From positions 682,001 to 746,000 of the forward strand of contig NZ_JAHCQH010000015.1 of NCBI RefSeq assembly GCF_018449475.1: a stretch of 64,000 nt of DNA. Reading direction: 5' to 3'. Position numbers and translations under genes: made by a program. Below the pieces are notes generated by a model. That model made no database searches. It saw only the letters and a list, made by a program, of their open reading frames with translations, and was not told the DNA's origin. Positions 11,307 through 29,480 of this stretch are shown here, in pieces; the stretch's first letter is position 1, and every line of letters begins with the position of its first letter. This DNA comes from Ancylobacter radicis (GTDB lineage Bacteria; Pseudomonadota; Alphaproteobacteria; Rhizobiales; Xanthobacteraceae).

Positions 11307-12434
11307 ATGAAATCGCGTGCCGCCGTTGCCTGGGAAGCCAAGAAGCCGCTGACCATCGAGACCATCGAGATCGGCGGGCCGAAGCCCGGCGAGGTGCTGG
11401 TCGAGATCATGGCGACCGGAGTGTGCCACACCGACGCCTATACGCTGGACGGGCTGGATTCCGAGGGCAAATTCCCCGCCATTCTCGGCCATGAGGGCGC
11501 GGGCATCGTGCGCGAGCTCGGCGCCGGCGTCACCTCGCTCAAGGTCGGCGACCATGTCATTCCGCTCTACACGCCGGAATGCCGGAACTGCAAAACCTGC
11601 CTGTCGCAGCGTTCGAATCTGTGCACCTCGATCCGCGCCACGCAGGGCCAGGGCCTGATGCCGGACCGCACGACCCGCTTCTCCTGCGAGTCCGTGGGCG
11701 GGCGCAGCGGCGAGATCTTCCACTATATGGGCTGCTCGACCTTCTCGAACTTCACCGTGCTGCCGGAGATCGCGCTGGCGAAGGTGCGCGAGGACGCCCC
11801 CTTCGACAAGATCTGCTACATCGGCTGCGGCGTCACCACCGGCATCGGCGCGGTGGTCTATACCGGCAAGGTGTGGCCGGGCGCCAATGTCGTGGTGTTC
11901 GGTCTCGGCGGCATCGGCCTCAACGTGATCCAGGGCGCCCGCATGGTTGGCGCCGACAAGATCATCGGCGTCGACATCAACCCGGCCAAGGTCGCCATGG
12001 CCAAGAAGTTCGGCATGACCGACTTCATCAATCCGCTGGAGGTCGGCAACGACAAGGTGGTGCAGGCGATCCAGGACCTCACCGATGGCGGCGCCGACTT
12101 CACCTTCGACTGCACCGGCAATGTCAATGTGATGCGCCAGGCGCTGGAAGCCTGCCATCGCGGCTGGGGCACCTCGATCGTCATCGGCGTGGCGCCGGCC
12201 GGGGCGGAAATCTCCACCCGCCCGTTCCAGCTGGTGACCGGCCGCAACTGGCGCGGCTCGGCCTTTGGCGGCGCGCGCGGGCGCACCGACGTGCCGAAGA
12301 TCGTCGACTGGTACATGGAGGGCAAGATCAACATCGATGATCTGATCACCCACACAATGCCGCTCGACGAGATCAACACCGCCTTCGACCTGATGCATGA
12401 GGGCAAGTCGATCCGCTCCGTGGTGATCTACTGA
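11307..12434 (+). CDS. frmA: S-(hydroxymethyl)glutathione dehydrogenase (class III ADH)
   Basis: The 375-residue zinc-dependent medium-chain dehydrogenase oxidises S-hydroxymethylglutathione to S-formylglutathione with NAD. Catalytic zinc ligands lie in [16 protein letters not shown] and [11 protein letters not shown]. The four structural-zinc cysteines are in [16 protein letters not shown], and the cofactor site is [15 protein letters not shown]. The length matches class III ADH. It lies between its regulator frmR and S-formylglutathione hydrolase, whose start overlaps its stop, so this is a formaldehyde detoxification operon. Confidence 0.96.
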
Positions 12435-13279
12435 TGGGCGCGCTGGAGACCATCTCGACCGCCAAGTCCCATGGCGGCGTGCAGGGCGTCTACCGCCATC
12501 AATCGGCGGTGACGGGCACGCCGATGACCTTCGCCGTCTTCGTGCCGCCGCAGGCGGCCAACGGCCCCGTGCCTGTGCTGTGGTATCTGTCCGGCCTCAC
12601 CTGCAGCCATGCCAATGTCATGGAGAAGGGCGAGTACCGCGCCGCCGCCAGCGCCCATGGCGTCATCATCGTCACGCCCGACACCAGCCCGCGCGGCGAG
12701 GGCGTGCCGGACGAGAAGGACAATTGGCAGTTCGGCTCGGGGGCCGGCTTCTATCTCGACGCGACGCAAGAGCCCTATGCCGCGAATTACCGGATGTACT
12801 CCTACATCGTCGAGGAACTCACCGCGCTGATCGCGGCGGAGTTTCCCGCCGATATGAGCCGGCAGGGCATTTTCGGCCACTCGATGGGCGGGCATGGCGC
12901 GCTGACCATGGCGCTGAAGCACCCGGACCGCTTCGCGAGCTGCTCGGCCTTCGCGCCGATCACCGAGCCGAGCTCGGCGGACTGGTCGCGCCCGGCGCTG
13001 GAAAAGTATCTCGGCGTCGATCAGGCGGCGTGGCGGGCCTATGACGCGGTGGCGCTGATCGCCGATGGCCGGCGTTTCCCGGATTTCCTGGTCGATCAGG
13101 GCACCGCCGACCCGTTCCTGAACACCGGCCTGCGCCCGCAATTGCTGGCTGACGCCTGCCAGAAGGCGGGCATTCCCCTCACGCTCAATCTGCGCGAGGG
13201 CTATGATCATTCCTACTTCTTCATCTCGACCTTCATGGCCGACCACATCGCCTGGCACGCCTCCCGCCTCGCGCGGTAG
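12434..13279 (+). CDS. frmB: S-formylglutathione hydrolase
   Basis: The 281-residue esterase-D-type alpha/beta hydrolase splits S-formylglutathione into glutathione and formate, the step after FrmA. The nucleophile lies in GHSMGGHGA. The acid is in the DQGTADPF region and the histidine in the GYDHSYFFI motif typical of the family. WYLSGLTCSHANVMEKGEYR is the family's oxyanion region. Its ATG shares a base with the frmA TGA, so the two are translationally coupled. Released formate would need a formate dehydrogenase encoded elsewhere. Confidence 0.95.
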   Translation: MGALETISTAKSHGGVQGVYRHQSAVTGTPMTFAVFVPPQAANGPVPVLWYLSGLTCSHANVMEKGEYRAAASAHGVIIVTPDTSPRGEGVPDEKDNWQFGSGAGFYLDATQEPYAANYRMYSYIVEELTALIAAEFPADMSRQGIFGHSMGGHGALTMALKHPDRFASCSAFAPITEPSSADWSRPALEKYLGVDQAAWRAYDAVALIADGRRFPDFLVDQGTADPFLNTGLRPQLLADACQKAGIPLTLNLREGYDHSYFFISTFMADHIAWHASRLAR

Positions 13280-13344: not shown

Positions 13345-14262
13345 TCAGCTTTCGGGATCATCGCTTCCCGCGTCGAACATCGAGCCGGCGCCCAGCGCGC
13401 TCTGGCCGATCAGCCGGGCGATGGCGGTGATGTCGGCCTGCCCGCCCAGCCGGTCGCGCGCGGCGGACCAGGTGGCGAGCAGCGCATCGAGCGTCGGCGT
13501 CTGCGTGTCGGCGCGGTGGGCGAGGTCGGCGGCGATGGCGATGTCCTTGCAGAACAGCTCCAGCGTCTGGCCGAAATCATAGGTGCCGGTCAGCACGTGG
13601 TTCGGCAGCTTGACCTCGGTGGCGTGGCTCTTGCCGGACCCGGCACTCCATACTTTCAGCATCACCTGCGGATCGAGCCCGAGCCGCTGGCCGATGATCA
13701 GCGCCTCGGTGGCGCTCCACAGCGTCGCCGCCGACAGGTAATTGTTGAGCGCCTTGATGACATGGCCGGAGCCGACCGGCCCGACATGGATCACCGTGCC
13801 GCACATGCGCTCAAGCAAGGGGCGCACCCGCGCGAACACCTCCGGCGCGCCGCCGCACATGGCGGTCAGCGTGCCCGCGCGGGCCCCCGCCATGCCCCCG
13901 CTCACCGGCGCGTCGAGCACGGCGATGCCGCGCGGGGCCAGTTCCTGCGCCAACCCGACGATGCCGGCCGGGGCGGCGGTCGACATGTCCACCACCACCG
14001 CGCGCGGCGCCCCGGCCAGAGCGCCCTGCGGCCCGAGCAGCGCCTCCCGCACATGGGCGTCGGTCGGCAGCATGGTGATGACGATGTCGCCGGGCAGACC
14101 GGCCGCCGTTGTCGCTGCCGGGATGCCGCGGGCGCGAAACGGCGCCAGCGCCGCCTCGGCGAGGTCGACCACCGCCAGCCGCACGCCGCTATCGGCGAGG
14201 CGCGCCGCCATCAGGGCGCCCATCCGCCCCACGCCGATGAAAAGCACGCTGTCCTCGGTCAC
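13345..14262 (-). CDS. NAD(P)-dependent oxidoreductase, 3-hydroxyisobutyrate dehydrogenase family
   Basis: The 305-residue beta-hydroxyacid dehydrogenase has an N-terminal Rossmann motif (FIGVGRMGALMAARL), the substrate-binding DAPVSGGMAGARAGTLT, and the catalytic lysine in GSGHVIKALNN. The family includes 3-hydroxyisobutyrate, tartronate semialdehyde and 2-(hydroxymethyl)glutarate dehydrogenases; the exact substrate is not shown. A GTG start at 14262 is chosen because GGGAGG stands nine bases upstream, while the open frame further upstream overlaps the next gene. It follows an enoyl-CoA hydratase-like gene after 31 bases and forms a two-gene operon at the edge of the catabolic block. Confidence 0.88.
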   Translation of the reverse strand: MTEDSVLFIGVGRMGALMAARLADSGVRLAVVDLAEAALAPFRARGIPAATTAAGLPGDIVITMLPTDAHVREALLGPQGALAGAPRAVVVDMSTAAPAGIVGLAQELAPRGIAVLDAPVSGGMAGARAGTLTAMCGGAPEVFARVRPLLERMCGTVIHVGPVGSGHVIKALNNYLSAATLWSATEALIIGQRLGLDPQVMLKVWSAGSGKSHATEVKLPNHVLTGTYDFGQTLELFCKDIAIAADLAHRADTQTPTLDALLATWSAARDRLGGQADITAIARLIGQSALGAGSMFDAGSDDPES

Positions 14263-14293
14263 CTTAGCCTCCCCCGTCCCGGCCCCGCCCCGG

Positions 14294-15001
14294 TCAATGG
14301 GCCCGCGCGGCGAGCGAGATCGCCATGGTGGCGACCGCGTTGCGGGCTTCCGTCTCGTCCGACAGGCCGGCGACGCGGCGCGCAAAGGCGCGCAGCAGGC
14401 GCACCGATTCGCCATCCAGCGCCGCGATGGTACGGGCGAAATCGAGCGCGCGGGCGAGCGCGGTGCCGGGCGCCACAACCTCGGTCACGATGCCGATCTC
14501 CTTCGCCTCCGCCGCGCCGAAATGCCGGCTGGTCAGCGCCAGCTCGAAGGCGCGCTTGAACGGCACGAACTTGCCGAAATAGGACAGCACGATCAGCGGC
14601 GGCAGCCCGTGCGACATTTCCGGCAGGGCGAACACCGCATCCTCAGCGGCAATGGCGATGTCGCATTGGGTGGTGAAACCGCAGCCGAAGCCGAGCGCCT
14701 TGCCCTCCACCGCCGCGATGAAAGGCACGGGCGAGGCGCGCAGCCGGGCGTTCACCTCAAGGATCAGGTTCAGATCGTCGCGCACCTCCGCCGCCGAGGT
14801 CAGTCCGCGCAAACCCACGCGGCCGGCGCAGAAATGCGCGCCCTCGCCCGCCAGCACCACCGCCGTGAGATCGGGCTTGGCCAGCACCTCGTCCAGCGCA
14901 CCCGCAAAGGCGGCGAGCTGGGCCGAGGAAATGTGGTTGCCGTCGGCGGTGTGGGTGAAGGTGACGGCGTAAATGCCCTCGCCATGCGCATCGATCTTCA
15001 T
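14294..15001 (-). CDS. Enoyl-CoA hydratase/isomerase family protein
   Basis: The 235-residue crotonase-fold protein has oxyanion-hole segments around AGEGAHFCAGRV and AVEGKALGFGCGFTTQCDIAIA, the latter being the family signature. FALPEMSHGLPP is where the catalytic acid usually lies, so hydratase, isomerase or hydrolase activity are all possible. An AGGAGAG site precedes the ATG. It is divergent from the alpha/beta hydrolase gene across a gap with a predicted GntR operator, and is followed by the HIBADH-family gene. It may process ring-cleavage products after CoA activation, though no CoA ligase is seen nearby. Confidence 0.87.
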   Translation of the reverse strand: MKIDAHGEGIYAVTFTHTADGNHISSAQLAAFAGALDEVLAKPDLTAVVLAGEGAHFCAGRVGLRGLTSAAEVRDDLNLILEVNARLRASPVPFIAAVEGKALGFGCGFTTQCDIAIAAEDAVFALPEMSHGLPPLIVLSYFGKFVPFKRAFELALTSRHFGAAEAKEIGIVTEVVAPGTALARALDFARTIAALDGESVRLLRAFARRVAGLSDETEARNAVATMAISLAARAH

Positions 15002-15058
15002 CTCAACTCTCCTTGGAACGCCCGGACCGGTCCAGCCGGGCGCGTTTGTCTTGTCGTA

Positions 15059-15069
15059 TTGTATGACGA
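15059..15069. promoter_or_regulatory. Predicted operator of FadR-type GntR regulator
   Basis: TTGTATGACGA exactly fits the TNGTNNNACNA consensus of FadR/FCD-type GntR regulators. It lies in the 130-base divergent promoter between the enoyl-CoA hydratase gene and the hydrolase-GntR-CMD operon, inside the only AT-rich patch there. The GntR gene two positions downstream is the obvious candidate binder and could control both directions. Confidence 0.6.
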
Positions 15070-15131
15070 TAATATGCTAGAAGCAGTTCGCCCCTCGGGG
15101 CCTGTCCATTGTCGAACGAGGAGCACGCCCG

Positions 15132-15902
15132 ATGGCGATGATCGAGCTGAACGGGGAAAGCCTGGGCTATGAGCGGGAGGGCAGCGGCGAGCGGCTCCTG
15201 CTGATCCACAGCCTCGGCACCGGCGCCTGGATGTGGCGCGAGCAGATTCGCCGCTGGTCCGCCGATTTCGAGGTGATCGCCGTGGATGCGCGCGGCCATG
15301 GCCGCTCCACCCGTCGCGGCGGCTTCACCGTGCGCAACGTCGCGGCCGATCTCGCCGCCGTGCTGGAGGCCTTCGGCGGCGAGCCCGCGCGCGTGCTCGC
15401 CATCTCCATGGGCGGGCCGATCGCCGCCCATCTCACCGATCTCGCGCCGCATCTGGTCAGCCGGCTGGTGATCGCCGACAGCTTCGCCACGCAGGGCGAG
15501 GCCGGCGCCACCCGCGCCGCCGCCATTGCCGAGACCATCGCCAAGGGCTCGATGCAGGATTATGCCCGCGCCTATGCCGCCGACACGCTGGTCGAGGACG
15601 ACCCGACCCATGTCGCCGCGCTGGTAGCCAGCATCGCCGGGATGGAGCCTGCCGCCTATGTCGAGGCGGCGCAATCGGTGTTCACCGCCGATGTGGTCGA
15701 TCTCTACAAGGCGGTGCGGGTGCCGACCCGTGTCGTCGTCGGTGCGCGCGACAACCGCACCCCGCCGCGCCTGTCGCAGGAGATCGCCCGGCTCATCCCC
15801 GGCGCCGACTATGCGGAGATCGAGGGCGCCCGGCATCTGGCCAATCTCGACCGGCCGGAGGCGTTCCACGCCGCCGTCGAGCCGTTCCTGCTGGCGCGCT
15901 GA
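15132..15902 (+). CDS. Alpha/beta fold hydrolase, enol-lactonase/deformylase-like
   Basis: The 256-residue alpha/beta hydrolase has the oxyanion HSLGTG segment, the DARGHGRS motif after strand 4, a nucleophile elbow AISMGGPIAA, and acid and histidine near GARDNRTPP and EGARHLANLDRP. It resembles 3-oxoadipate enol-lactonase (PcaD). N-formylmaleamate deformylase (NicD) and acetamidomethylenesuccinate hydrolase of pyridine pathways are also alpha/beta hydrolases. With a NicX gene nearby, a role on a pyridine ring-cleavage product is plausible but unproved. GAGGAG precedes the start. It leads an operon with a GntR regulator and a CMD-family protein. Confidence 0.85.
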   Translation: MAMIELNGESLGYEREGSGERLLLIHSLGTGAWMWREQIRRWSADFEVIAVDARGHGRSTRRGGFTVRNVAADLAAVLEAFGGEPARVLAISMGGPIAAHLTDLAPHLVSRLVIADSFATQGEAGATRAAAIAETIAKGSMQDYARAYAADTLVEDDPTHVAALVASIAGMEPAAYVEAAQSVFTADVVDLYKAVRVPTRVVVGARDNRTPPRLSQEIARLIPGADYAEIEGARHLANLDRPEAFHAAVEPFLLAR

Positions 15903-15914
15903 GAGATCGCCGCG

Positions 15915-16613
15915 ATGAACTCCCCGCTCGGCATCGGCCCCCTCAGCCAGGAAAGCGCGCCGCTGCGCCGCAAGCTGGTGGCGACGCTGCGCCGGCTGAT
16001 CGAAACCGGCGCGCTCGCCGCCGGCCAGCGCCTGATCGAGAAGGACCTCACCGCCGAGCTGGGGGTGAGCCGCACCGTGCTGCGCGAGGCGCTGCGCGAG
16101 CTGGAGGCGGACGGCCTGCTCGCCGCCGGCCCGCGCGGCCTCTCGGTCGCCGTGCTGGCGCAGGGCGAGGCGGAGAACATCTATGCGGTACGCGCCGCGC
16201 TGGAGGCGATGATCGCCCGCCAGTTCTGCCAGCGCGCCGATGCGGCGGGACAGGCGGCGCTGACCGGCGCGCATCACAACCTCGCCCGCGCCTATGACAG
16301 CGGCGGGCTGGGCGCGATCCTCGACGCCAAGCTGGCCTTCTACCGCGCGCTGTGCGCCGGTGCCGGCAATCCGGTGGCGCTCGATCTGCTGGAACGACTG
16401 AACGCCCGCATCAGCCTGCTGCGCGCCCGCTCGCTGGTCGACCCCGGCCGCGCGCAGGCCTCGATCCGCGAAATCGACGCGCTGGTGGCGGCGCTGCTCG
16501 CCCGCGAGGACGCCCGCGCCGCCACGCTGGCCGAACGCCACGTCGCCGCCGCCGCCCGCGCCGCGCTGGCCGCCTCCTCTTCCCCGCTCAATGATTCGGA
16601 GACCGCTCAATGA
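15915..16613 (+). CDS. GntR family regulator, FadR/FCD subfamily
   Basis: The 232-residue regulator has an N-terminal winged helix (LIEKDLTAELGVSRTVLREALRELEADGLL) and an all-helical FCD effector domain from about residue 95. FCD proteins sense small organic acids, often through a bound metal. A site matching the subfamily consensus lies at 15059-15069, so it probably represses the surrounding catabolic genes until a pathway intermediate accumulates. Its stop overlaps the start of the CMD-family gene, indicating coupling. Confidence 0.9.
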   Translation: MNSPLGIGPLSQESAPLRRKLVATLRRLIETGALAAGQRLIEKDLTAELGVSRTVLREALRELEADGLLAAGPRGLSVAVLAQGEAENIYAVRAALEAMIARQFCQRADAAGQAALTGAHHNLARAYDSGGLGAILDAKLAFYRALCAGAGNPVALDLLERLNARISLLRARSLVDPGRAQASIREIDALVAALLAREDARAATLAERHVAAAARAALAASSSPLNDSETAQ

Positions 16614-17008
16614 CCGACGACCTTTTTGAAAAGGGCCTTGAAATCCGCCGCGCCGTGGTCGGCAGCGCCTATGTCGACAAGTCGCTGGCGGAGGCCGACG
16701 ACTTCACCCGCCCGCTGCAGGAGCTGGTGACCAAATATTGCTGGGGCGAGGTGTGGGGCCGCGAGGGTCTGGCCCGCCGCGACCGCTCGCTGCTCAATCT
16801 CGGCATGATCGCGGCGCTGAACCGTCCTCATGAGCTGAAGCTCCATGTGCGCGGCGCCCTCAACAACGGGCTGACGCGCGAGGAAATCCGGGAGGTATTC
16901 CTCCAGGTAGCGATCTATTGCGGCGTCCCCGCCTCACTCGACAGCTTCCGCATCGCCCGCGAAGTGTTCGCCGAGGAAGACGCCAAGGCCGCCGCCGCCA
17001 AGGGGTGA
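16610..17008 (+). CDS. Carboxymuconolactone decarboxylase family protein
   Basis: The 132-residue protein is similar to PcaC, 4-carboxymuconolactone decarboxylase. It has the CMD-fold features LLNLGMIAALNRPHELKLHVRGALNNGLTREEI split across two helices, followed by EVFLQVAIYCGVP. The family also includes peroxidase-like AhpD proteins, but the AhpD CxxC is absent. No protocatechuate genes are present, so the substrate may be another lactone formed in the local catabolic route. It is coupled to the GntR gene by an ATGA overlap and ends the operon. Confidence 0.85.
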   Translation: MTDDLFEKGLEIRRAVVGSAYVDKSLAEADDFTRPLQELVTKYCWGEVWGREGLARRDRSLLNLGMIAALNRPHELKLHVRGALNNGLTREEIREVFLQVAIYCGVPASLDSFRIAREVFAEEDAKAAAAKG

Positions 17009-17040
17009 GCTTTGGGCCTTTCCCGCGCTGAGCGTGCCTT

Positions 17041-17163
17041 GCCCTCTCCCCACTGGGGAGAGGTGGCCCGCGCAGCGGGGTCGGTGAGGGGGAGCCCGGT
17101 CGCGGAGCGGTCGAAGGCCCCTCACCCCAGCCCTCTCCCCCGACGGGGAGAGGGAGAGGCAGT
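17041..17163. repeat. Dispersed GC-rich palindromic repeat (CCTCTCCCC type)
   Basis: Two hairpins, CCTCTCCCC-actGGGGAGAGG and CCTCTCCCC-gacGGGGAGAGG, flank a central segment with further inverted similarity. It fills the gap between two convergent genes. Such CTCTCCCC/GGGGAGAG elements are frequent between alphaproteobacterial genes and may act as bidirectional transcription stops. I see no coding sequence here. Confidence 0.75.
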
Positions 17164-17167
17164 CCCC

Positions 17168-18211
17168 TTACTTCTGGTCCTCGGGGATCACCTTCCCGTC
17201 GATGGTCATCGGCTCGCCGTCCAGCGACAGCGAACAGCCGCGCAGCGGAATGTCCATGTGGCAGGGTGTGTTGCGGGTGCCGCCGGCCTCGGTGTTCGGG
17301 CCGCTCGACCACAGGAAATTGCCCCAGAAGGAGCGCGCATCCATGGAAAGCCCGGCCTCGCGGTCATAGAGGCCGAGCGTCGTCCAGTGCGCGCGCTTGT
17401 GCAGGCCCCAGCCGACATGCGCCATCGCATAGGCGTCGGGGTCGTTGAAGCTTTCCATGTAGCTGCGCAGATATTCCGCCTCGAAGCCGCCCTCGATGGA
17501 GCGGATCCAGCCGCCCTCGATGCCGATGCGGATCGGCTCACGGGCATAGCGTTTGAACGGCAGCAGAATGTCGCCGGTGTCGATGACGATGGTGCCCTCG
17601 CAGGTGCCTTCATCCGGCCAGGTGGCGACGAAGCAGCTCGGCCAGTGGTCCCAGCCGCCGCGCGTGTCGACGAAGCCCTGCTGCTTCAGCACCGGGTACT
17701 GGCCGATGGAGCAGCGGAAATCCGTGCCCGCCTTCGAGGTGACGGTGAGCGTCTTCGCCTTGGCGAGGCGGGCGGCGGCGTTGCCAGCGCGGCGGGCGTC
17801 GTCCAGCGTCGGCTTCATGCGCAGCATCACCTCCGGCGGCTCGCAGGCGAGCAGCATCCGGGCGCCGGTCTTCAGGATCTCGTCCTGCTCGGGCGAGAAC
17901 AGCAGCAGCATGGTGTCGATAACGAGATCGGAATGCTTCATCGCTTCCAGCGCCGCGCGGTTGCCCTTCAGCGCGGTGTGGCCGACATAGCCGGACTTGT
18001 CGCGCGAGAGCGCCACGTCGCCATTGAGCGGCGGCAGGTGAAGGATGGTCAGCACGCCGCCGAGCTGGCCGACCGCCGTGCGGACGGTGGCGACGAGCTG
18101 CGGGTTGCTGTCATCGCTGACCAGCAGGCAGACCTGCTCGCCCGCTGTCAGCTTCGACAGGGTGAGCACATCCTTCCACGCCTCGATGAGCGCCAGATCA
18201 CTGATAGCCAT
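17168..18211 (-). CDS. nicX: 2,5-dihydroxypyridine 5,6-dioxygenase
   Basis: The 347-residue protein closely resembles Pseudomonas putida NicX, the iron(II) dioxygenase that cleaves 2,5-dihydroxypyridine to N-formylmaleamate. The three NicX iron ligands are all kept at identical numbering: His265 in YAMAHVGWG, and His318 and Asp320 in TPCHMDIPLR. Other shared stretches are DLVIDTMLLLFSPEQDEILKTG and GGFEAEYLRSYMESFNDP. GGAAGG precedes the ATG. It is the last gene of the minus-strand operon that contains a flavin reductase, two amidases and an HpaB-like monooxygenase, so the operon probably degrades a hydroxypyridine or related ring. Confidence 0.9.
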   Translation of the reverse strand: MAISDLALIEAWKDVLTLSKLTAGEQVCLLVSDDSNPQLVATVRTAVGQLGGVLTILHLPPLNGDVALSRDKSGYVGHTALKGNRAALEAMKHSDLVIDTMLLLFSPEQDEILKTGARMLLACEPPEVMLRMKPTLDDARRAGNAAARLAKAKTLTVTSKAGTDFRCSIGQYPVLKQQGFVDTRGGWDHWPSCFVATWPDEGTCEGTIVIDTGDILLPFKRYAREPIRIGIEGGWIRSIEGGFEAEYLRSYMESFNDPDAYAMAHVGWGLHKRAHWTTLGLYDREAGLSMDARSFWGNFLWSSGPNTEAGGTRNTPCHMDIPLRGCSLSLDGEPMTIDGKVIPEDQK

Positions 18212-18258
18212 GATTACCTTCCCTGTTGGGAATCCTGCGGAATGTCCGCGCCGCCGGT

Positions 18259-18780
18259 TCAGGCCAGCGAGCGATAGGCGCGGTCGAAATGGATGAGCGG
18301 TGGCTGCGCGCCGCCGAGGCGCACCGCGCGCACGGTGCCGAAGAACACCGTGTGGGTGTAGGCCTCGACGCTCTCGGCCAGCGTGCAGTCGATGCTGACC
18401 AGCGCCCCGTCGAGAGCCGGAGCGCCCGTGACCAGCGAGCGCCAATCGGCCCCGGCGAACTTTTCCGCACCGGCGAGGCCGTGCCGGCCGGCGAAACGGT
18501 CGGCGACCGGCAGGTTCGCTTCCGCCAGCACGTTGACGCAGAAGGCGCGGGAGCGGGCAATGGCGCGATGCGCGTCGCCCTCGCGGTTGACGCAGACCAG
18601 CAAAGTCGGCGGGGCGATCGACACGCTGGCCACCGCCGTGGCGGTGAGCCCGCGCGCCTCCTCGCCCTGCCCGGCGGTGATGACCGTGACCGCGCTGGCG
18701 GTGAGGCCCATGGCGCGCTTGAACGCCTCGACCAGCGCCGGGTCGATCGGCTCCATCGGGGATATCGCCAGCGCGCCCAT
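18259..18780 (-). CDS. Flavin reductase, NADH:FMN/FAD type
   Basis: The 173-residue protein belongs to the flavin reductase-like (HpaC/RutF) family. It has the flavin-binding GLTATAVASVSIAPPTLLVCVN segment, a SRAFCVNVLAEA strand and the C-terminal PPLIHFDRAYRSL. It should supply reduced flavin to a partner monooxygenase; the HpaB-like gene of the same operon is the natural partner. The ATG at 18780 overlaps the upstream amidase stop; a GTG one codon earlier is also possible. nicX follows after 47 bases. Confidence 0.9.
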   Translation of the reverse strand: MGALAISPMEPIDPALVEAFKRAMGLTASAVTVITAGQGEEARGLTATAVASVSIAPPTLLVCVNREGDAHRAIARSRAFCVNVLAEANLPVADRFAGRHGLAGAEKFAGADWRSLVTGAPALDGALVSIDCTLAESVEAYTHTVFFGTVRAVRLGGAQPPLIHFDRAYRSLA

Positions 18781-20060
18781 CACGCCCCCGCCTTCAGCGC
18801 GTCTTCGATGAAGGCGGCGAGCGCCAGCGTTTCCGCATCCGCACCAATGCGCCCGACCACCTGCACGCCGACCGGCAGGCCGAGCGGGCCGACACCCGCG
18901 GGGACCGACAGCGTCGGCACATGCAGCAGCGTCCAGGGCTTGTTGAACACCGGGTCGCCGGTAGCGGTGCCGAGCGGCGCCTCGCCCGGCGCGGCCGGGG
19001 TGATGAGGCCGTCGCAGCCGCCCAGCAGTTCCTCGACGATTGCCTCGCGCTGCCGGAGCACGGCCAGCGCCGCGTCGTACTCGGCCCGCGTCGCCCTGGA
19101 CAGCGTCTCGATGAAGCCGCGCGTGATCGGCGAGATGCGCGCGCCCATCACGCGATGCTCATAGGCCAGCGTGCGCGGCGTCTCGAAGCCCATCACCGCG
19201 TCGAACAGCGCATAGAGCCGCTCGAAATGGTCGGGAACCTCCAGCTCGCGCACCGTGCCGCCGGCCGCCTCGATGGCCGTCACGGTACGGGCGAGCGCGT
19301 CGCGAGTGGCGGGCTCGGCCTGCGCCCAGCGGGAGGTGCGGAACAGGCCGATCAGCGGCGCGCCGCCGGTCCGTCCCTGCGCCAGCGCCGGGCGCTCGGC
19401 CAGCGCGGCGACGGCGAAGGCAGCATCGCGCACGTCGCGGGTCACCAGCCCGAGATGATCGAGCGTGTCGGAGAGCGGCTTGATGCCGGCCCGGTTGAGC
19501 GTGCCGAAGCTCGGCTTATAGCCGACCACGCCGCAATAGGAGGCCGGGCGCAAGATCGAGCCCGCCGTCTGCGTGCCGAAGGCGATTTGCACCATGCCGG
19601 CCGCCACCGCCGCGCAGGAGCCGCTCGACGAGCCGCCGGGCGTGTGGGCGGGGTTGACCGGGTGGCGCGTCTTGCCGGGGCTCGACATGGCGAATTCGGT
19701 CGAGACGGTCTTGCCCATCACCACCCCGCCAAAGGCGCGGGTGAGCGCCACGGCGGGCGCGTCCCACAGGGGGCGATGCCCCTCATAGACCGCCGAGCCA
19801 TAGCCGGTCGGCATGTCCGCCGTGTCGATCACGTCCTTGACGCCGAAGGTGACGCCGGCGAGCGGCCCGGCGGGCGCGGCTTTGGCTTCCGCCAGCGCGC
19901 GCTCCCGGTCGAAAAAGGCGAAGGCCTGCACCTCCAGTTCCATCGCCGCGATGCGGTCGGCGAAGGCGGCGGTCACGGCTTCGGCCGTCATCTCGCCGGC
20001 AGAAACGCGCCGGGCGGTCTCGCGGGCGGAGAGGTCGGCGAGGTGGGTCACGTCCGTCAT
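18780..20060 (-). CDS. Amidase, amidase-signature family
   Basis: The 426-residue amidase-signature enzyme has the Ser-cisSer-Lys triad: Lys75 in GVKDVID, a serine in PGGSSSGSCAAVAAG, and the nucleophile Ser168 in TQTAGSILRPA. The tyrosine-containing region after it is normal for the family. It hydrolyses an unknown amide. In this operon, candidates are maleamate or another open-chain amide from pyridine cleavage, although the characterised maleamate amidase NicF belongs to a different fold. It overlaps both neighbours by ATGA and is therefore coupled to the first amidase and the flavin reductase. Confidence 0.9.
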   Translation of the reverse strand: MTDVTHLADLSARETARRVSAGEMTAEAVTAAFADRIAAMELEVQAFAFFDRERALAEAKAAPAGPLAGVTFGVKDVIDTADMPTGYGSAVYEGHRPLWDAPAVALTRAFGGVVMGKTVSTEFAMSSPGKTRHPVNPAHTPGGSSSGSCAAVAAGMVQIAFGTQTAGSILRPASYCGVVGYKPSFGTLNRAGIKPLSDTLDHLGLVTRDVRDAAFAVAALAERPALAQGRTGGAPLIGLFRTSRWAQAEPATRDALARTVTAIEAAGGTVRELEVPDHFERLYALFDAVMGFETPRTLAYEHRVMGARISPITRGFIETLSRATRAEYDAALAVLRQREAIVEELLGGCDGLITPAAPGEAPLGTATGDPVFNKPWTLLHVPTLSVPAGVGPLGLPVGVQVVGRIGADAETLALAAFIEDALKAGA

Positions 20061-21523
20061 GGGGAAACTCCCGCCGAGAGGTTCGGGCGGGTGCCGAACC
20101 AGGGCCGCGCCCGCTCCAATTGCCCGGCCAGGCTGAACAGCAGCCCGTCCTGCCCGAGCCCGGCGCCGAACTGCACCCCGACCGGCAGGCCACCGCCGGA
20201 CATGCCGAGCGGCACGCTCATCGCCGGGAAGCCGGAGGCGTTGAAGGCGCAGGTGAAGGGCGCATGGGTCCAGAAGGCGTCGTAGAAGGCATCAAGGCTC
20301 TTGTCCCCGCCGGCCAGCACGCCGAGCGGCGGCGGCAGTTCGGCGGCGGTGGGCGAGAGCAGCACGTCATAGCGGGTGAAGAAGCGCCCGAGCGCGCGCG
20401 CCGTCTGGTGCAGCACATTGACCGCGCCGAGATAGGCGGTGGCCGGCAAGGCGCGCGCCTCGCGCACCCATTGCGCATTCACCGGCTCGATCGCGCCAAG
20501 CGGATCATCCAGCCCCAGCGCCCGCCCGCGCCCCTCAACCGCCGGGGCGACATTGACCCCGACGATGATGCGCCAGGCCGCTTTCAGCGCATGGGCGTCA
20601 TAGCCCGGCTCGCAGATCTCGACTTTGTGGCCGAGCGCCTCGCACAGCCGCGCGGCGGCTTCCGCGACGCGCCGGCATTCCGGGTCGACCGGCGTGCCGA
20701 GCGGCGAGTCGGGGGTGAAGCCGATACGCAGCGGGCGGGGATCGCGGCCCACCTGCGACAGGTAGCTCTCAGGTCCCACGGGCGAAAAATAGGGATCGCC
20801 CACGTCCGGCCCGGCGGTCGCGTCGAGCAGGGCGGCGTTGTCGCGCACGCTCCAGCTCGCGGCATGGGGGGTCGACATGCCGGCAATCGCCTCGACGACC
20901 ACCGGGCCGAGCGGGTTGAGCATCCGGCTCGGCTTGAAGCCGAACAGGCCACAATGGGAGGCCGGCAAGCGGGTCGAACCGGCGCCGTCCGAGGTGTTGG
21001 CCATCGGCACATAGCCGGCGGCGATGGCGGCGGTGGAGCCGCCCGACGAGCCGCCGGGGCTGCGCGCCGTGTCCCACGGGTTGCGCGAGGGGCCGAAGGC
21101 GTCCGGCTCGGTGGTGAAGCTGAGCGCGAATTCCGGCGTGTTGGACTTCGCCAGGATCACCAGCCCGGCCGCCTTGTAGCGGGCGACCAGCGTGCCGTCG
21201 CGCGCCGAGACATTGTCGCGGAACAGGTTCGAGCCGGTCGAGAGCACCGTGCCGGCCATCTCGAAGCCGGTGTTCTTCAGCAGGAACGGCACGCCGGTAA
21301 ACGGGCCGTCCGGCAGTCCCTCGGCAACGGCCTCTCGCGCCAGATCCTCGAAGCGATGCACGAGGGCATGGAGCGTCGGCTCATGCGCCTCGACGCGCGA
21401 CAGCGCGGCATCGAGCAGGTCGGCGGGCTTCACCTCGCCGGCGCGCACCAGCTCGGCGAGGCCGATGGCGTCATAGTCTTCATAGCCGGCAAAGCCTTCA
21501 TGGGAGACGGGCGCCGTGCTCAT
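20057..21523 (-). CDS. Amidase, amidase-signature family
   Basis: This 488-residue second amidase-signature enzyme of the operon has Lys83 in VPFLLKNTG, a serine in SPGGSSGGSTAAIAAG and the nucleophile Ser183 in SDGAGSTRLPAS. It resembles 6-aminohexanoate-cyclic-dimer hydrolase and related broad-range amidases. It is not GatA: no gatB or gatC is adjacent and the context is catabolic. The ATG at 21523 has GGGAGG upstream and overlaps the SnoaL-like gene. Two amidases side by side suggest two sequential amide cleavages or different substrates. Confidence 0.9.
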   Translation of the reverse strand: MSTAPVSHEGFAGYEDYDAIGLAELVRAGEVKPADLLDAALSRVEAHEPTLHALVHRFEDLAREAVAEGLPDGPFTGVPFLLKNTGFEMAGTVLSTGSNLFRDNVSARDGTLVARYKAAGLVILAKSNTPEFALSFTTEPDAFGPSRNPWDTARSPGGSSGGSTAAIAAGYVPMANTSDGAGSTRLPASHCGLFGFKPSRMLNPLGPVVVEAIAGMSTPHAASWSVRDNAALLDATAGPDVGDPYFSPVGPESYLSQVGRDPRPLRIGFTPDSPLGTPVDPECRRVAEAAARLCEALGHKVEICEPGYDAHALKAAWRIIVGVNVAPAVEGRGRALGLDDPLGAIEPVNAQWVREARALPATAYLGAVNVLHQTARALGRFFTRYDVLLSPTAAELPPPLGVLAGGDKSLDAFYDAFWTHAPFTCAFNASGFPAMSVPLGMSGGGLPVGVQFGAGLGQDGLLFSLAGQLERARPWFGTRPNLSAGVSP

Positions 21524-21978
21524 GCCGTCCTCCCCGCTTGCGCCCCGGCGCCGCTGATCTGCCGCTGGAAATCGGCCGGATCCCAATAATCGCGCGTGCC
21601 TGAAATGGCGCCGTCCGCGAGGTCGAAGACATGCACGCCGCGCAGTTCGATCGGCAGGCCGCGCGTCGGCGCGCCGCGCAGGTCGACGCCCAGCCGGCCG
21701 GTCAGCGTGTAGACCACGGCGACGCGCGGGCCGGAATCGATCCGCTCGCGCATCTGCCAATGGGCATCGGTGATGAAGCCGAAGAAACGCTCCAGCCCCT
21801 CGCGCAGCGCCTCGCGGCCCTGGCGGCGCGTGCCGTTATGGGCTTCCTCGTGCCAGCCATCGCACAGATAGAGCGCGCTCGCGGCTTCCGCGCTCCCCCG
21901 GTTATAGGCGTCGTAGAACACGTCCACCACATCCGGGGCGGCGGCGGCACGCGCGGCGGCGCCGTGGGATGAAGCCAT
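21520..21978 (-). CDS. SnoaL/NTF2-like protein
   Basis: The 152-residue protein has the cone-shaped NTF2-like fold pattern: an N-terminal helix with FYDAYNRGSAEAASALY, a WHEEAHNGTRRQGREALREGL segment typical of SnoaL-like proteins, then antiparallel strands ending in GTRDYWDPADFQRQI. Members act as isomerases, hydrolases or small binding proteins. Its position between an HpaB-like monooxygenase and two amidases suggests it handles a reactive oxygenated intermediate. GGAGG precedes the start. The exact role is unknown. Confidence 0.82.
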   Translation of the reverse strand: MASSHGAAARAAAAPDVVDVFYDAYNRGSAEAASALYLCDGWHEEAHNGTRRQGREALREGLERFFGFITDAHWQMRERIDSGPRVAVVYTLTGRLGVDLRGAPTRGLPIELRGVHVFDLADGAISGTRDYWDPADFQRQISGAGAQAGRTA

Positions 21979-22061
21979 GGAGTGCCTCCGGTCGGTTCAG
22001 GGCGGGAGAAGCGCCGGACCGTCAGATGAACGGCCCGGCAGCGCGCGGGATCGCAACACCA

Positions 22062-22080
22062 TACCCCCCGCGAGGGGGTA
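22062..22080. terminator. Intra-operon hairpin
   Basis: A perfect inverted repeat, TACCCCC-CGCGA-GGGGGTA, lies in the 111-base gap between the HpaB-like gene and the SnoaL-like gene. It has no T-run, so it may stabilise or partly terminate the upstream message rather than end it. Confidence 0.45.
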
Positions 22081-22089
22081 CGGGCCCGC

Positions 22090-23574
22090 TCAGGGCATGC
22101 CGGCGAGCTTCTTCACCTGGCCGATGAAAGCGTCGCGCTTCACCTCATTATAGAGGCGCTCGCGCAGGCGCGGGGCGGGGCTGGCATTGACGTTCTCGAA
22201 CAGGGCCACCCGCCCCGCGAGGGACGAGGAGGTCATGTCCCAGATGAAGTTCATCAGCAGTTCCTTGACCTCGGCGCTGACCCCCTTGCCGGGCAACAGG
22301 TCGTGCAAATGATGGCCGATCTCGGGATTGTCGAAGGCCGCCTTGCCGAAGCGCATGACGAGACCCTGGCCGCACAGTTCCTGCAGCGTGTGGATGATGC
22401 GCGGGTAGTGCTCGATGGAATAGAGTCGGCCGGCGGTGAGCATGCCGACATCCGGCGCCATCACCTCGCCCTCGGTCGGCTTGGCCAGCGCCTCGGCGGC
22501 GGTCACGAAAGCGCGCAGCGTCTGGGCGTACTGGATGATCTCGCCGAGCATGCCCTGCACCGCCGGGATGTGCGAGGTGCCGAGAATGTCCAGCACGAGC
22601 TGGCCGGCGCCGACGAACAGCTCGGCCTTCACGGTCAGGCGGGTCAGCACGTGCCAATGCGCGAAGACGCAGACCGGCCCGTAATAGGACATGGCCGTCG
22701 GGTCGCCGAGGTTGAAGATACGGTCGGTCGGCACGAACACGTTGTCGAAGATGATGAGCTGGTCGGCTTCCTCGCCGAGGCGGGCGACCGGGTGGTCGAA
22801 CGGGTCGGCGCCGGGATGGGAGACCATCTCGCGCGAGATCAGCTTGATGCCCTCGGCATTGATCGGCACCGAGGCCCAGATGCAGGCTTCCGCCGGGGTC
22901 TCGCGGATGCCGCCGAGATTGGTGAAGAATATCTCATTGGCCTGCGCCGAGATCGAACCGACCGTCTTGGCGCCGGAAACGCGGATGCCGCCCTTCTCGA
23001 CGCTCTTGACCTTCAGCAGCGAGGCTTCCGCGCCCTTGGCGCTGGAGCGGTCATTCTGCGGGCCGGTCAGGCTTTCCGAGGCGGTGAGGTTGGTGTCGCG
23101 GCCATAGGCGACATAGGCCTCGATATTCTCGGCGAAATCGGGGTTGCAGCCCTCGATCAGCGACTTCTTCGACTTGAAGGTCGGCAGATAGGCCAGCAGG
23201 CCGACGGCGATGGCGGGAGCCAGATCCGGCGGGCGGCCAAAGGTGCCGGCGGTCTTCAGGCTGGTATATTCGATCATCTTGCGACGGTCGGCGAGGTCTT
23301 CCTTGGTGCGCGGCACCTGCCAGGAACGGCTCGCCACCGCGCCGCTATCGTCGATATAGGTCGTGGCATCGGCGAATTCCGGCGTGAACTGGTCGTCGAA
23401 CATCGAGGCGATCAGGTCGACGCCGGCCGACAGCGCCGGGTTATCGAAGACGCTGGCGATGCGCTTGCCGCCGACCCACAAGGCGCGACCGTCGTCGAGC
23501 GACTTCTTGAATTCATCACCGGTCTTGAGCTTGTGGCCTACGGGAAGATCCCGCTTCGGCGTCTGCGCGTTCAT
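22090..23574 (-). CDS. HpaB-family FADH2-dependent monooxygenase
   Basis: The 494-residue protein belongs to the 4-hydroxyphenylacetate 3-hydroxylase large-subunit family. Characteristic stretches include SESLTGPQNDRS, AKTVGSISAQANEIFF, DEADQLIIFDNVFVPTDRIF-like ordering (residues about 280-300) and a C-terminal acyl-CoA-dehydrogenase-like helical domain. It needs reduced flavin from a separate reductase, and one is encoded later in the operon. The hpa pathway is absent and NicX is present, so the substrate is more likely a pyridine or hydroxypyridine. Pyridine ring monooxygenases of this family have been described. GGAG precedes the ATG. It is the first gene of the six-gene operon. Confidence 0.88.
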   Translation of the reverse strand: MNAQTPKRDLPVGHKLKTGDEFKKSLDDGRALWVGGKRIASVFDNPALSAGVDLIASMFDDQFTPEFADATTYIDDSGAVASRSWQVPRTKEDLADRRKMIEYTSLKTAGTFGRPPDLAPAIAVGLLAYLPTFKSKKSLIEGCNPDFAENIEAYVAYGRDTNLTASESLTGPQNDRSSAKGAEASLLKVKSVEKGGIRVSGAKTVGSISAQANEIFFTNLGGIRETPAEACIWASVPINAEGIKLISREMVSHPGADPFDHPVARLGEEADQLIIFDNVFVPTDRIFNLGDPTAMSYYGPVCVFAHWHVLTRLTVKAELFVGAGQLVLDILGTSHIPAVQGMLGEIIQYAQTLRAFVTAAEALAKPTEGEVMAPDVGMLTAGRLYSIEHYPRIIHTLQELCGQGLVMRFGKAAFDNPEIGHHLHDLLPGKGVSAEVKELLMNFIWDMTSSSLAGRVALFENVNASPAPRLRERLYNEVKRDAFIGQVKKLAGMP

Positions 23575-24097: not shown

Positions 24098-24559
24098 TCA
24101 GTCGGCCGCGCGCCGCTGGCAGTCCAGCGCCTGCGCCGTGGCGCCCGCCCGGCAGTCCAGTTCCACGCCCGGCTCGCGCGCGCCGGCGCGCCGCTCCAGC
24201 CGGATCATGCTGCGGGTGGAAACATCCGCCCCCTCATAGCCGCACCACAGGGTCTGGATCGGCATCCGGTCCTGCTGCGCATTGAGCAGGAACACCTCGC
24301 CGCTCGCCGCCTTGGACCACAATTGCGCGTCCAGCCGCCCGCCGGGCGCGACCGTGCCGATGGCGGCGGAGTACCAATGGGCGATGGCGGCGGCGCAGGC
24401 GAGCGGGCGATCGGTCGCGTTGCGCACACGGAACGGCACCGCCTCCAGCCCCTCCACGCCGCGCTCCACCACGAGCGCCTCCTGCGCCAGCGCCCGGCCG
24501 GCGACCGGCGCGGCGCTGGCGGCGAGACCCGCAAAACCCAGAACAAGAAACGCCCGCAT
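24098..24559 (-). CDS. Small exported protein of unknown function
   Basis: The 153-residue protein has a clear Sec signal peptide (MRAFLVLGFAGLAASAAPVA, cleavage likely after GRALA). The mature part has four cysteines, fitting two periplasmic disulfides, and a beta-rich pattern without a domain I recognise. It faces the importer genes across a short divergent gap but codes in the opposite direction. Codon use is normal for the genome. The assignment as a real gene rests on the signal peptide and spaced cysteines. Confidence 0.65.
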   Translation of the reverse strand: MRAFLVLGFAGLAASAAPVAGRALAQEALVVERGVEGLEAVPFRVRNATDRPLACAAAIAHWYSAAIGTVAPGGRLDAQLWSKAASGEVFLLNAQQDRMPIQTLWCGYEGADVSTRSMIRLERRAGAREPGVELDCRAGATAQALDCQRRAAD

Positions 24560-24671: not shown

Positions 24672-25730
24672 ATGAGACACCGCATCTTCAAGACCACGGC
24701 ATTGACGATACTTGGAATCACCTCGCTTGCCCTGATGTCGACGGCGCTGACCGCCGTGACCCAGGCGGCCGAGCTGAAGTCGATCGCCATTCTCACCCCC
24801 GAGCCCGGCACGGATTATGGCTGGAACCAGCAGGGCGTCGATGCCGCCAAGGCCGCCGGCAAGGCGGCGGGCGTCGAGGTGCTGGTGGCCGAGAATCTCG
24901 GCTATGGCGATGTGCGCCCGACGCTGCGCGAGATGGCGCAGGATGGCGCCGGGCTGCTGATCGCCCATGCCAGCGGCTACAACACCGCCGCCCCCGAGAT
25001 CGGCGCCGAGATGAAGGTGCCGGTCGCCATCGTCGACCTGCCGGACGCCCGCAAGCCCGGCGCGGTCGCCGACTACACCGCCAGCGGCCATGAGGGCGCG
25101 TATCTGGCCGGCCGCCTCGCCGCCAAGATGAGCAAGACCGGCACGGTCGGCATTGTCGTCTCCGGCGAGCCGCCGTCCTGGAACTCGCAGTCCTCCGCCT
25201 TCGCCGAGGGTGCCAAGGCCGAGAAGCCCGGCATCAATGTGCGCTACGCGGTGATCGGACCGGCGGCCTATTCGGACGCGGCCGGCGGCAAGCGCGTCAC
25301 CGAGGCGCTGATCGCGGCCGGCGCCGATATCATCTTCGGCCAGGGCAACGGCTCGAGCTTCGGCATGTTGCAGGCGGTCGAGACCAACAAGGCGACCAAT
25401 GGCGGCAAGGTCTATTTCATCGACGTGATCGGCGACAAGACCGCCATCGACAAGGGCAACCTGCTCTCGTCCGTGGTGTGGAACCTGACCCCGGTCTATG
25501 CGGCGATGATCGCCGACGTGAAGGCCGACAAATACGGCTCGCGCAACTACGACATCAACCTCAAGGACGGCTCGGTCACGCTGCTCAAGACCACGCACAT
25601 CCCGGCCGATGTGTGGGCGCAGATCGAGGCGCTGAAGAAGGACATCATCGACGGCAAGATCAAGGTGACCGCGCATTACGATGCCGACACCGTGCACAAG
25701 ATGGTGTCGCAGCTTCCCACCGCCCAGTGA
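24672..25730 (+). CDS. BMP family ABC transporter substrate-binding protein
   Basis: The 352-residue periplasmic binding protein has an N-terminal signal sequence of about 33 residues ending in TQAAEL. The mature protein follows the basic-membrane-protein/PnrA family, with SIAILTPEPGTDYGWNQQGV and FGQGNGSSFGMLQAV segments. Characterised members bind nucleosides or similar heterocycles. Next to vitamin B6 catabolic genes, a pyridine-type ligand is an alternative. A GAGGG site precedes the ATG. It is the first gene of a four-gene importer operon. Confidence 0.92.
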   Translation: MRHRIFKTTALTILGITSLALMSTALTAVTQAAELKSIAILTPEPGTDYGWNQQGVDAAKAAGKAAGVEVLVAENLGYGDVRPTLREMAQDGAGLLIAHASGYNTAAPEIGAEMKVPVAIVDLPDARKPGAVADYTASGHEGAYLAGRLAAKMSKTGTVGIVVSGEPPSWNSQSSAFAEGAKAEKPGINVRYAVIGPAAYSDAAGGKRVTEALIAAGADIIFGQGNGSSFGMLQAVETNKATNGGKVYFIDVIGDKTAIDKGNLLSSVVWNLTPVYAAMIADVKADKYGSRNYDINLKDGSVTLLKTTHIPADVWAQIEALKKDIIDGKIKVTAHYDADTVHKMVSQLPTAQ

Positions 25731-25842
25731 CGCGTTGGCCACGGCCCGCCTGCGGGCCGGCCGTGGCCTCCCGCCGTCGCCCGGCGTTCCCCTCCGATTT
25801 TTGCCCTGCTCCCTCCGGCGCCGGGACGACCAGCAGCAGATC

Positions 25843-28544: not shown

Positions 28545-29480
28545 ATGTCCGCTCTGTTCACCGACGCCTTCCTCACCTCCCTCGTTCTCGGCGCGCTGAC
28601 CGCCGGCATCCCGCTGATGCTGGCCGGGCTCGGCGAGCAGATCTCCGAGAAGGCCGGCGTGCTCAATATCGGCATCGAAGGCATGATGCTGTTCGGCGCC
28701 TATGCCGGCTTCCTCGTCGCCTACCACACCGGCTCCATCTGGCTCGGCTTCCTCGGCGGCGCCGTGGGCGGCATGGCGGTGGCGGTACCGATGGCGGTGC
28801 TGTGCATCCGCATGGGGCTGAGCCAGATCGTCATCGGCATCGCGCTGACGCTCGGCGCGGAAGGGCTCACCGCCCTGCTCCACCATTTCCAGTTCGCCCA
28901 GAGCTACCCGCGCCTGCCGGCGGTGGAGACGCTGCCGATTCCTGTGCTGTCGAGCCTGCCGGTCGTCGGCCCGGCCTTGTTCGACCGGCCGCCCATCGTC
29001 TATCTCGCGGTGCTGGCGGTGTTCGTCACGGCCTATGTGTTCCGCGCGACCCAGTTCGGCCTGGCGCTTCAGGCGGCGGGCGACAAGCCGGCGGCGCTGG
29101 ATGCGGCGGGCGTCGACGTGGTGCGCGTGCGCACCATCGCCGTGCTCATCACCGGCGGCCTTGCCGGCGTCGGCGGCGCCTTCATGGCGGAGGTCGGGGC
29201 CGGGATCTTCGTGCCGTTCATGACCAATGGCGCCGGCTTCATCGGCATCGTTCTGGCCATGCAGGCGCGCGGCAAGCCGTTGTGGGTGCTGTGCGGCGCG
29301 CTGCTGTTCGGCGCGTGCCTCTCCGCCACCACGGCGCTGCAGGTGGCGGGCGTCAGCATCCCGACCGACGTGATCCAGATGCTGCCCTTCGCCGCCGTGC
29401 TCACCGTGCTGGTGCTGTTCGGCCGCAAGGCGAGCCTGCCGCCGGCCCTCGGCACCCATTATGTGCGGGGCGCGCGATGA
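28545..29480 (+). CDS. ABC transporter permease (BMP/nucleoside type)
   Basis: The 311-residue permease is hydrophobic throughout and has the characteristic EKAGVLNIGIEGMMLFGAYA and LSQIVIGIALTLGAEGLTALL segments of the second subunit in BMP-type importers. GGGGGAGA precedes the start. It completes the importer. The convergent aminotransferase gene ends 17 bases after its stop, with no visible terminator between them. Confidence 0.92.
   Translation: MSALFTDAFLTSLVLGALTAGIPLMLAGLGEQISEKAGVLNIGIEGMMLFGAYAGFLVAYHTGSIWLGFLGGAVGGMAVAVPMAVLCIRMGLSQIVIGIALTLGAEGLTALLHHFQFAQSYPRLPAVETLPIPVLSSLPVVGPALFDRPPIVYLAVLAVFVTAYVFRATQFGLALQAAGDKPAALDAAGVDVVRVRTIAVLITGGLAGVGGAFMAEVGAGIFVPFMTNGAGFIGIVLAMQARGKPLWVLCGALLFGACLSATTALQVAGVSIPTDVIQMLPFAAVLTVLVLFGRKASLPPALGTHYVRGAR

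Follow-up and report, generated by a model that had tools for sequence, protein, structure and literature searches.

Bacterial vitamin B6 degradation and the nic pathway of Pseudomonas putida are the described systems closest to the locus presented here. Two routes of B6 degradation are named in the accessible part of PMC3538738, where 2-(hydroxymethyl)-4-oxobutanoate appears as the end product of pathway II (Pseudomonas IA, Arthrobacter Cr-7). The conversion of pyridoxal to 4-pyridoxate is described in PMC6253932, which, in the portion available, calls the bacterial import of vitamin B6 poorly understood. According to the accessible text of PMC7910607, Glu177 of P. putida NicX touches N1 and O1 of the substrate, and Glu177, His105 and His189 are named as determinants of specificity. 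For HadA, which is homologous to TftD and TcpA, para hydroxylation of phenols is stated in the available section of PMC6180312.

We analyzed a stretch of 64,000 nucleotides from Ancylobacter radicis (assembly GCF_018449475.1, contig NZ_JAHCQH010000015.1, positions 682,001 to 746,000), hereafter the window (G+C 68%; genome of 4.2 Mb), in which an HpaB-like monooxygenase, a NicX-family dioxygenase and two amidases share an operon. On the grounds of homology, linkage and inference, the island of about 20 kb around this operon (13.3–33.4 kb) likely encodes a third catabolic route for vitamin B6. The initial annotation of this DNA had proposed a hydroxypyridine catabolic cluster; vitamin B6 appeared there only in a list of compounds to try in growth experiments. 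The catabolism of a substituted pyridine is supported; a simple hydroxypyridine as the substrate is not, since the linked entry enzymes, the importer and the co-occurrence pattern described below all point to B6.

NicX and the HpaB–NicX Operon

The core of the island is an operon on the minus strand with the order HpaB–SnoaL–AmiB–AmiA–flavin reductase–NicX, in which the genes overlap or are closely spaced, with 4-base overlaps at the SnoaL/AmiB, AmiB/AmiA and AmiA/flavin reductase junctions. HpaB (22090–23574; PF11794/PF03241) is a predicted FADH2-dependent monooxygenase and a candidate C6 hydroxylase of pyridoxal or 4-pyridoxate. Its relatives in the PDB include 7dbw, 9j9j (a 4-nitrophenol 4-monooxygenase) and chlorophenol monooxygenases; apart from 7dbw, the closest are chlorophenol and nitrophenol monooxygenases. 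The SnoaL-like protein (21520–21978; PF12680/PF07366) may be an isomerase or hydrolase helper. AmiB (20057–21523) and AmiA (18780–20060) are amidase-signature enzymes (PF01425) and putative imide/amide hydrolases, and the motifs that we take to be the Lys–cisSer–Ser triad of this family are intact in 36/36 AmiB rows and 33/33 AmiA rows. With the flavin reductase (18259–18783; PF01613), the proposed partner of HpaB, the operon contains both the oxygenase and the reductase of a two-component HpaB-type system.

NicX (17168–18211) matched no Pfam or NCBIfam entry at the limit used, and its best match in the PDB was P. putida NicX (7cn3, 401 bits). Its nearest named relatives, at 88–93% identity, come from seven Ancylobacter and one Chthonobacter; A. 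sonchi, A. defluvii and A. tetraedralis are examples of species with island-bearing strains. A scan of genome contigs for NicX yielded 71 loci, 39 of which form, together with the window protein, a clade with support of 100/99 in a tree of 71 rows; the characterized P. putida enzyme falls outside. The other 32 loci are represented by 30 rows in the alignment and the tree, as two were too short. Judged from the sequences, the clade is of single origin.

The Fe ligands H265, S302, H318 and D320 (P. putida numbering) are kept in 40/40 clade rows, and the substrate contact His189 is retained. Position 177, however, is Gln in 40/40 clade rows vs. Glu in 30/30 others. Cys193 and Ala264 are likewise invariant in the clade, and these sites hold Gly and Ser in 29 of the 30 other rows. 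The clade also carries Phe at position 105, but so do 23/30 other NicX proteins, so that the change of His105 does not discriminate. By similarity and Fe ligands, we assign the window protein to the 2,5-dihydroxypyridine 5,6-dioxygenase family as a predicted member with Gln in place of Glu177.

The operon partners follow the clade. At thresholds of our choosing (100 bits; 60 for SnoaL; 80 for the flavin reductase and for the carboxymuconolactone decarboxylase treated below), HpaB was found beside 38 of the 39 clade nicX genes, SnoaL beside 36, AmiB beside 36, AmiA beside 37 (one a fragment, in L061) and the flavin reductase beside 35. Beside the 32 others, at the same thresholds, HpaB was found once, in Neobacillus (L098), and SnoaL, AmiB, AmiA and the flavin reductase not at all; those loci have shared gene families of their own. 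The initial annotation had placed a NicX with all iron ligands in one operon with an HpaB-like enzyme, its reductase, a SnoaL-like protein and two amidases, and the overlaps, the ligands and the conservation within the clade bear this out.

Some loci depart from this arrangement. Two from Neorhizobium (L045, L056) have a shortened HpaB–SnoaL–AbrB-type permease–NicX order, with no amidases or flavin reductase in the locus. An AbrB-family membrane protein (PF05145, tested on L043) lies beside nicX or inside the operon in nine loci (L042–L047, L049, L056, L095). No other operon genes were present in the fetched locus L134, which comes from a family member with 55% NicX identity. The cluster of Neobacillus sp. 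PS3-12 (L098, 2.5–12.5 kb) is Gram-positive and combines two HpaB homologues, NicX (43%) and a weak flavin reductase match with an alpha/beta hydrolase, an Amdase/maleate isomerase-like protein and a cytosine/purine-type permease. It resembles a genuine route of the hydroxypyridine or nicotinate type, in which HpaB would serve as the hydroxylase.

Predicted Vitamin B6 Entry Enzymes and Their Co-Occurrence with the NicX Clade

Outside the initially annotated region (13345–23574), but within 10 kb beyond hpaB, lie genes for an importer, a pyridoxamine–pyruvate transaminase (PPAT) and a pyridoxine 4-oxidase homologue. PPAT, a class-V aminotransferase (open frame 29498–30742, minus strand), scored 631.9 bits against the NCBIfam equivalog model NF046070, above its cut-off of 600, and 583 bits against PDB 2z9u, with the next match at 151. 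We take 2z9u to be the Mesorhizobium PPAT, although the match table labels it an aspartate aminotransferase. The oxidase homologue (31874–33427, plus strand) belongs to the GMC family and matched PDB 4ha6 with 569 bits, the next enzyme reaching 277. In Brucella/Ciceribacter-type loci, a GMC oxidase gene comes after nicX, and the protein of one of them (L060) matched the pyridoxine 4-oxidase 4ha6 with 748 bits vs. 254 for the next enzyme.

We searched for both entry enzymes in the genomes of 30 of the 39 clade loci and 20 of the 32 others. PPAT over the cut-off was present in 30/30 clade genomes vs. 1/20 with other NicX, and the oxidase homologue (E ≤ 1e-105) in 30/30 vs. 0/20. Taking contigs with matching coordinates as identical, PPAT lies 2.7–13.4 kb and the oxidase 1.0–16.0 kb from nicX, and this linkage is kept across several families. 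In an order sample of 397 genomes drawn from the host order, PPAT exceeded the cut-off in 24 and NicX was found at E ≤ 1e-100 in 9. Eight of these nine belong to the clade (66–100% identity), and all eight carry PPAT on the same contig, 1.3–13 kb away; the ninth (G138, 55% identity) is without PPAT. For the association of clade NicX with PPAT, Fisher p = 5e-11 (this and the Fisher values below ignore kinship). Three of the eight genomes (G349, G456, G530) are, by matching coordinates, also among the 30 tested, so that the two counts are not independent.

Within the genus, PPAT was found in 11/30 genomes. Three of them have NicX (G000, G062, G084), and five match clade genomes by PPAT coordinates. 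Two further PPAT loci, on fetching, proved to contain the operon and the importer together with PPAT (L155, L156). In the eleventh (G599), PPAT is more divergent and the 20 kb fetched contain no NicX. Of the 19 genus genomes without PPAT, the NicX search covered four (G022, G103, G120, G136), none of which has a strong NicX.

An Importer Shared with Mesorhizobium-Type B6 Clusters

Between the operon and PPAT lies an ABC transporter on the plus strand, made up of a BMP/PnrA-type substrate-binding protein (24672–25730; PF02608), an ATPase (open frame 25681–27420, the true start probably some way in; PF00005 in two stretches) and two permeases (27417–28532 and 28545–29480; both PF02653). Copies of the BMP protein that are 65–74% identical, together with both permeases and a small protein encoded next to them, occur in 10 of 11 fetched Mesorhizobium-type B6 regions; the eleventh (L149) contained only PPAT. 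The same import module thus accompanies two catabolic enzyme sets, a pairing that makes little sense if the two sets do not share a class of substrate. That the transporter imports B6 vitamers is suggested by its position in B6 clusters of either type. In 20 of the 39 clade loci, the fetched stretch contains no BMP gene.

The small protein (24098–24559, minus strand) has four invariant Cys residues in the alignment, an AHW[YF]S motif and a predicted all-beta structure (AF2 pLDDT 87.5). It adjoins the Bmp gene in 37/37 loci that hold it, some of which are the same genome twice, and accompanies the importer in B6 clusters of either type. It had no match in Pfam, NCBIfam or PHROGs, nor in a fold search at E ≤ 0.001, and is probably exported or periplasmic.

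Complementarity with the Mesorhizobium-Type Route

Pathway I of Mesorhizobium loti and Pseudomonas MA-1 shares with the island pyridoxine 4-oxidase, PPAT, the BMP-type importer and the small periplasmic protein. As a marker of this route we used the FHMPC dehydrogenase model NF042925 with a cut-off of 500 bits. It was exceeded in 10 of the 397 order genomes, with an eleventh at 467 bits; in all 11, PPAT is present and clade NicX absent. This exclusion gave Fisher p = 0.002, rising to 0.006 when the eleventh genome is left out. None of the eight clade genomes exceeded the cut-off, and one of them, G000, gave no match at the limits used, either to FHMPC dehydrogenase or to MHPC oxygenase.

A Mesorhizobium-type cluster (L129) encodes MHPC oxygenase (3alj, 844 bits), 4-pyridoxolactonase (3aj3, 604 bits; NF047925, 491.6 vs. 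325) and pyridoxal 4-dehydrogenase (NF047923, 424.4 vs. 325). Among the 24 PPAT-positive order genomes, close homologues were found in five for MHPC oxygenase (86% or more), in ten for 4-pyridoxolactonase (67% or more) and in ten for pyridoxal 4-dehydrogenase (E ≤ 1e-50), and in none of the eight clade genomes for any of the three; in G331, the lactonase was present in pieces only. In contrast to pathway I, the island has HpaB, NicX and amidases instead.

Six FHMPC dehydrogenase-type clusters (G213, G315, G326, G374, G401, G417) have no close MHPC oxygenase, and here again a different enzyme may open the ring. Five PPAT-positive genomes carry neither clade NicX nor FHMPC dehydrogenase: G247, G316, G344 and G390, all of one genus, and G599, for NicX within the fetched stretch only. 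In the three that were fetched (G247, G390, G599), PPAT stands in a different gene context, possibly serving a further use of B6.

Adjoining Genes

On the plus strand next to nicX are genes for a PcaD-like alpha/beta hydrolase (15132–15902; PF00561; TIGR02427, 162.5 bits, below the cut-off of 255.85), a GntR/FCD regulator (15915–16613; PF00392, PF07729) and a 4-carboxymuconolactone decarboxylase-like protein (CMD; 16610–17008; TIGR02425, 158.6 bits, cut-off 155.7). On the minus strand follow an enoyl-CoA hydratase/isomerase-like protein (ECH; 14294–15001; PF00378) and a 3-hydroxyisobutyrate dehydrogenase-like enzyme (HIBADH; 13345–14262; PF03446/PF14833). Pfam and PDB searches found every gene family that had been named at the outset, and the hydrolase/GntR/CMD genes (15132–17008) and the HIBADH/ECH pair are as first described. 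CMD was found in 28/39 clade loci and beside 0/32 other nicX genes at the chosen threshold, the alpha/beta hydrolase in 9/39 clade loci, and the ECH-like protein only in loci of the window's type, 15 of those fetched. Relatives of HIBADH with 35–39% identity occur in Brucella/Ciceribacter-type loci.

Two proteins of L060 were considered as B6 enzymes and set aside: a metallo-beta-lactamase-fold protein, which reached only 27 bits against the 4-pyridoxolactonase 3aj3, and an SDR, whose closest relatives are 3-hydroxybutyrate dehydrogenases. Among the matches listed for the SDR encoded next to the L048 oxidase (best 25 of 210; 60 of 691), none was to a model or entry for pyridoxal 4-dehydrogenase. 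Adjoining the island (11307–13279, plus strand), a class III alcohol dehydrogenase and an S-formylglutathione hydrolase score above their NCBIfam cut-offs; they are probably an unrelated formaldehyde detoxification pair.

Discussion

Linked PPAT and oxidase genes, the shared importer, the co-occurrence and the complementarity with the Mesorhizobium B6 genes together make it very likely that vitamin B6 is the substrate of the island. The BMP-type transporter would bring in B6 vitamers and, by homology and linkage, PPAT would convert pyridoxamine, and the GMC oxidase pyridoxine, to pyridoxal. C6 is the sole unsubstituted ring carbon of vitamin B6 and lies para to the 3-OH. We propose from the chemistry that HpaB and its reductase hydroxylate this carbon, which would create the 2,5-dihydroxypyridine pattern that NicX needs. 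NicX would then split the C2–C3 bond and, because C2 carries a methyl group, release an N-acetyl rather than an N-formyl imide, from which the two amidases, both of which would fit such a product, could free acetate and ammonia. That HpaB, NicX and the amidases act in this order on a C6-hydroxylated B6 compound is, in our estimate, likely. As a proposal only, the leftover hydroxymethyl-substituted unsaturated acid could close to a butenolide, to be handled by CMD, a lactonase and the HIBADH/ECH-like enzymes; the lactonase would be PcaD-like in Ancylobacter and of the metallo-beta-lactamase fold in Brucella-type loci.

Whether the route branches at pyridoxal rather than at 4-pyridoxate is evenly balanced; pyridoxal is suggested by the lack, in the eight clade genomes, of close homologues of the known enzymes leading from it to 4-pyridoxate. 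The full scheme in which HpaB forms 6-hydroxypyridoxal, a NicX re-tuned by E177Q produces the N-acetyl imide, and the amidases, CMD and lactonase finish the degradation, bypassing 4-pyridoxolactone and 4-pyridoxate, is tentative, at slightly less than an even chance.

Several observations weigh against the proposed B6 route. No pyridoxal-oxidizing enzyme is linked to the operon, and everything downstream of the amidases consists of proposals only. E177Q alters a residue that contacts 2,5-dihydroxypyridine in the P. putida enzyme, and the activity of clade NicX is a prediction. The flavin reductase is missing in 4/39 clade loci, and both amidases in two (L045, L056). CMD, the hydrolase, HIBADH and ECH are each absent from some loci, and lineages may therefore vary in the lower part. 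PPAT occurs without either route in 5 of the 24 PPAT-positive order genomes. The separation from pathway I is also less than complete: two of the eight clade genomes (G456, G530) give FHMPC dehydrogenase matches of 212–232 bits against the cut-off of 500, a range found in many genomes of the order; two others (G281, G283) have lactonase-family matches of 30–33%; and six of the 11 FHMPC dehydrogenase genomes lack a close MHPC oxygenase, which makes the latter, taken alone, a weak marker.

The alternative that survives best is a variant of the proposed route, not exclusive of it, in which an unlinked or unrecognized dehydrogenase or oxidase makes 4-pyridoxate and HpaB hydroxylates this compound. 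It is possible, though on balance we lean against it. 4-Pyridoxate is an intermediate of the Pseudomonas/Mesorhizobium route, and a pyridoxal oxidase is also mentioned in the available part of PMC6253932; moreover, the loss of the Glu177 charge might suit an anionic substrate. Against this stand the eight clade genomes without a close pyridoxal 4-dehydrogenase or 4-pyridoxolactonase, and clade loci in which no dehydrogenase is constant beside the operon.

Hydroxypyridine catabolism, with HpaB making 2,5-dihydroxypyridine from 2- or 3-hydroxypyridine, NicX converting it to N-formylmaleamate, and NicD and NicF replaced by the amidases or by the alpha/beta hydrolase, is unlikely. The 401-bit match to P. 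putida NicX with all ligands present would fit it, and so would the Neobacillus cluster, given the two HpaB homologues, the alpha/beta hydrolase and the Amdase/maleate isomerase-like protein found there with NicX. Against it stand PPAT and the oxidase, linked in all 30 clade genomes, Gln177, and the importer that the island has in common with Mesorhizobium-type B6 clusters. With the nic pathway the island shares the family of the ring-cleavage enzyme and the para-dihydroxypyridine logic, but it differs in E177Q, the HpaB-type hydroxylation and the amidase-signature enzymes of the operon. The neighboring genes gave no Pfam match to FAD_binding_3, isochorismatase or Asp/Glu racemase-type proteins, which we take to be the families of NicC, NicE and NicF, and this search was confined to those genes, not genome-wide; the part of NicD might fall to the alpha/beta hydrolase (15132–15902). 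The maleamate/maleate end of the pathway, in terms of which the cluster was first read, finds no support, the evidence pointing to vitamin B6, and the lack of a maleate isomerase is to be expected if, as we infer, the ring-opened product carries substituents.

It is equally improbable that the two gene groups are independent, with PPAT, the oxidase and the importer salvaging or degrading B6 and the HpaB–NicX operon degrading another aromatic compound. In the window, PPAT and the oxidase do belong to separate transcription units, starting some 6 and 8 kb past hpaB, but the linkage holds in 30/30 genomes from several families and for PPAT in 8/8 clade genomes of the order sample, and the complementarity with FHMPC dehydrogenase also speaks against independence. 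Three explanations were dropped: a plain 2-/3-hydroxypyridine or nicotinate route, in view of the linkage and E177Q; coincidental neighbors, given the 30/30 linkage; and a system like that for indole-3-acetate (iac), which was considered since it likewise combines a flavin enzyme with an amidase and a SnoaL-like protein, as the ring enzyme here is NicX.

The proposed B6 route also differs from the remaining described systems. Pathway II has B6 as a growth substrate in common with it and is set apart by the end product given in the accessible part of PMC3538738. HadA, TftD and TcpA belong to the HpaB superfamily and share with the island's monooxygenase the para hydroxylation reported in the available section of PMC6180312, but the island's enzyme would act on a hydroxypyridine aldehyde instead of a halo- or nitrophenol. 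The initial annotation had regarded the enzyme combination as unlike nic, hpd and pic and as leading towards central metabolism; we agree, as far as the general outline of those routes goes. In a literature search that covered few subscription journals, no title or opening of an abstract among the matches listed linked NicX or HpaB to vitamin B6.

If the proposed route is correct, it would be a third one for vitamin B6, one whose entry module is known and whose core enzymes each have a clear chemical rationale, and it would extend the chemistry of NicX beyond 2,5-dihydroxypyridine. It would also explain the HpaB–NicX operons in 38 of the 71 fetched NicX loci, and would suggest a B6-specific BMP-type importer as a candidate for bacterial vitamin B6 import.

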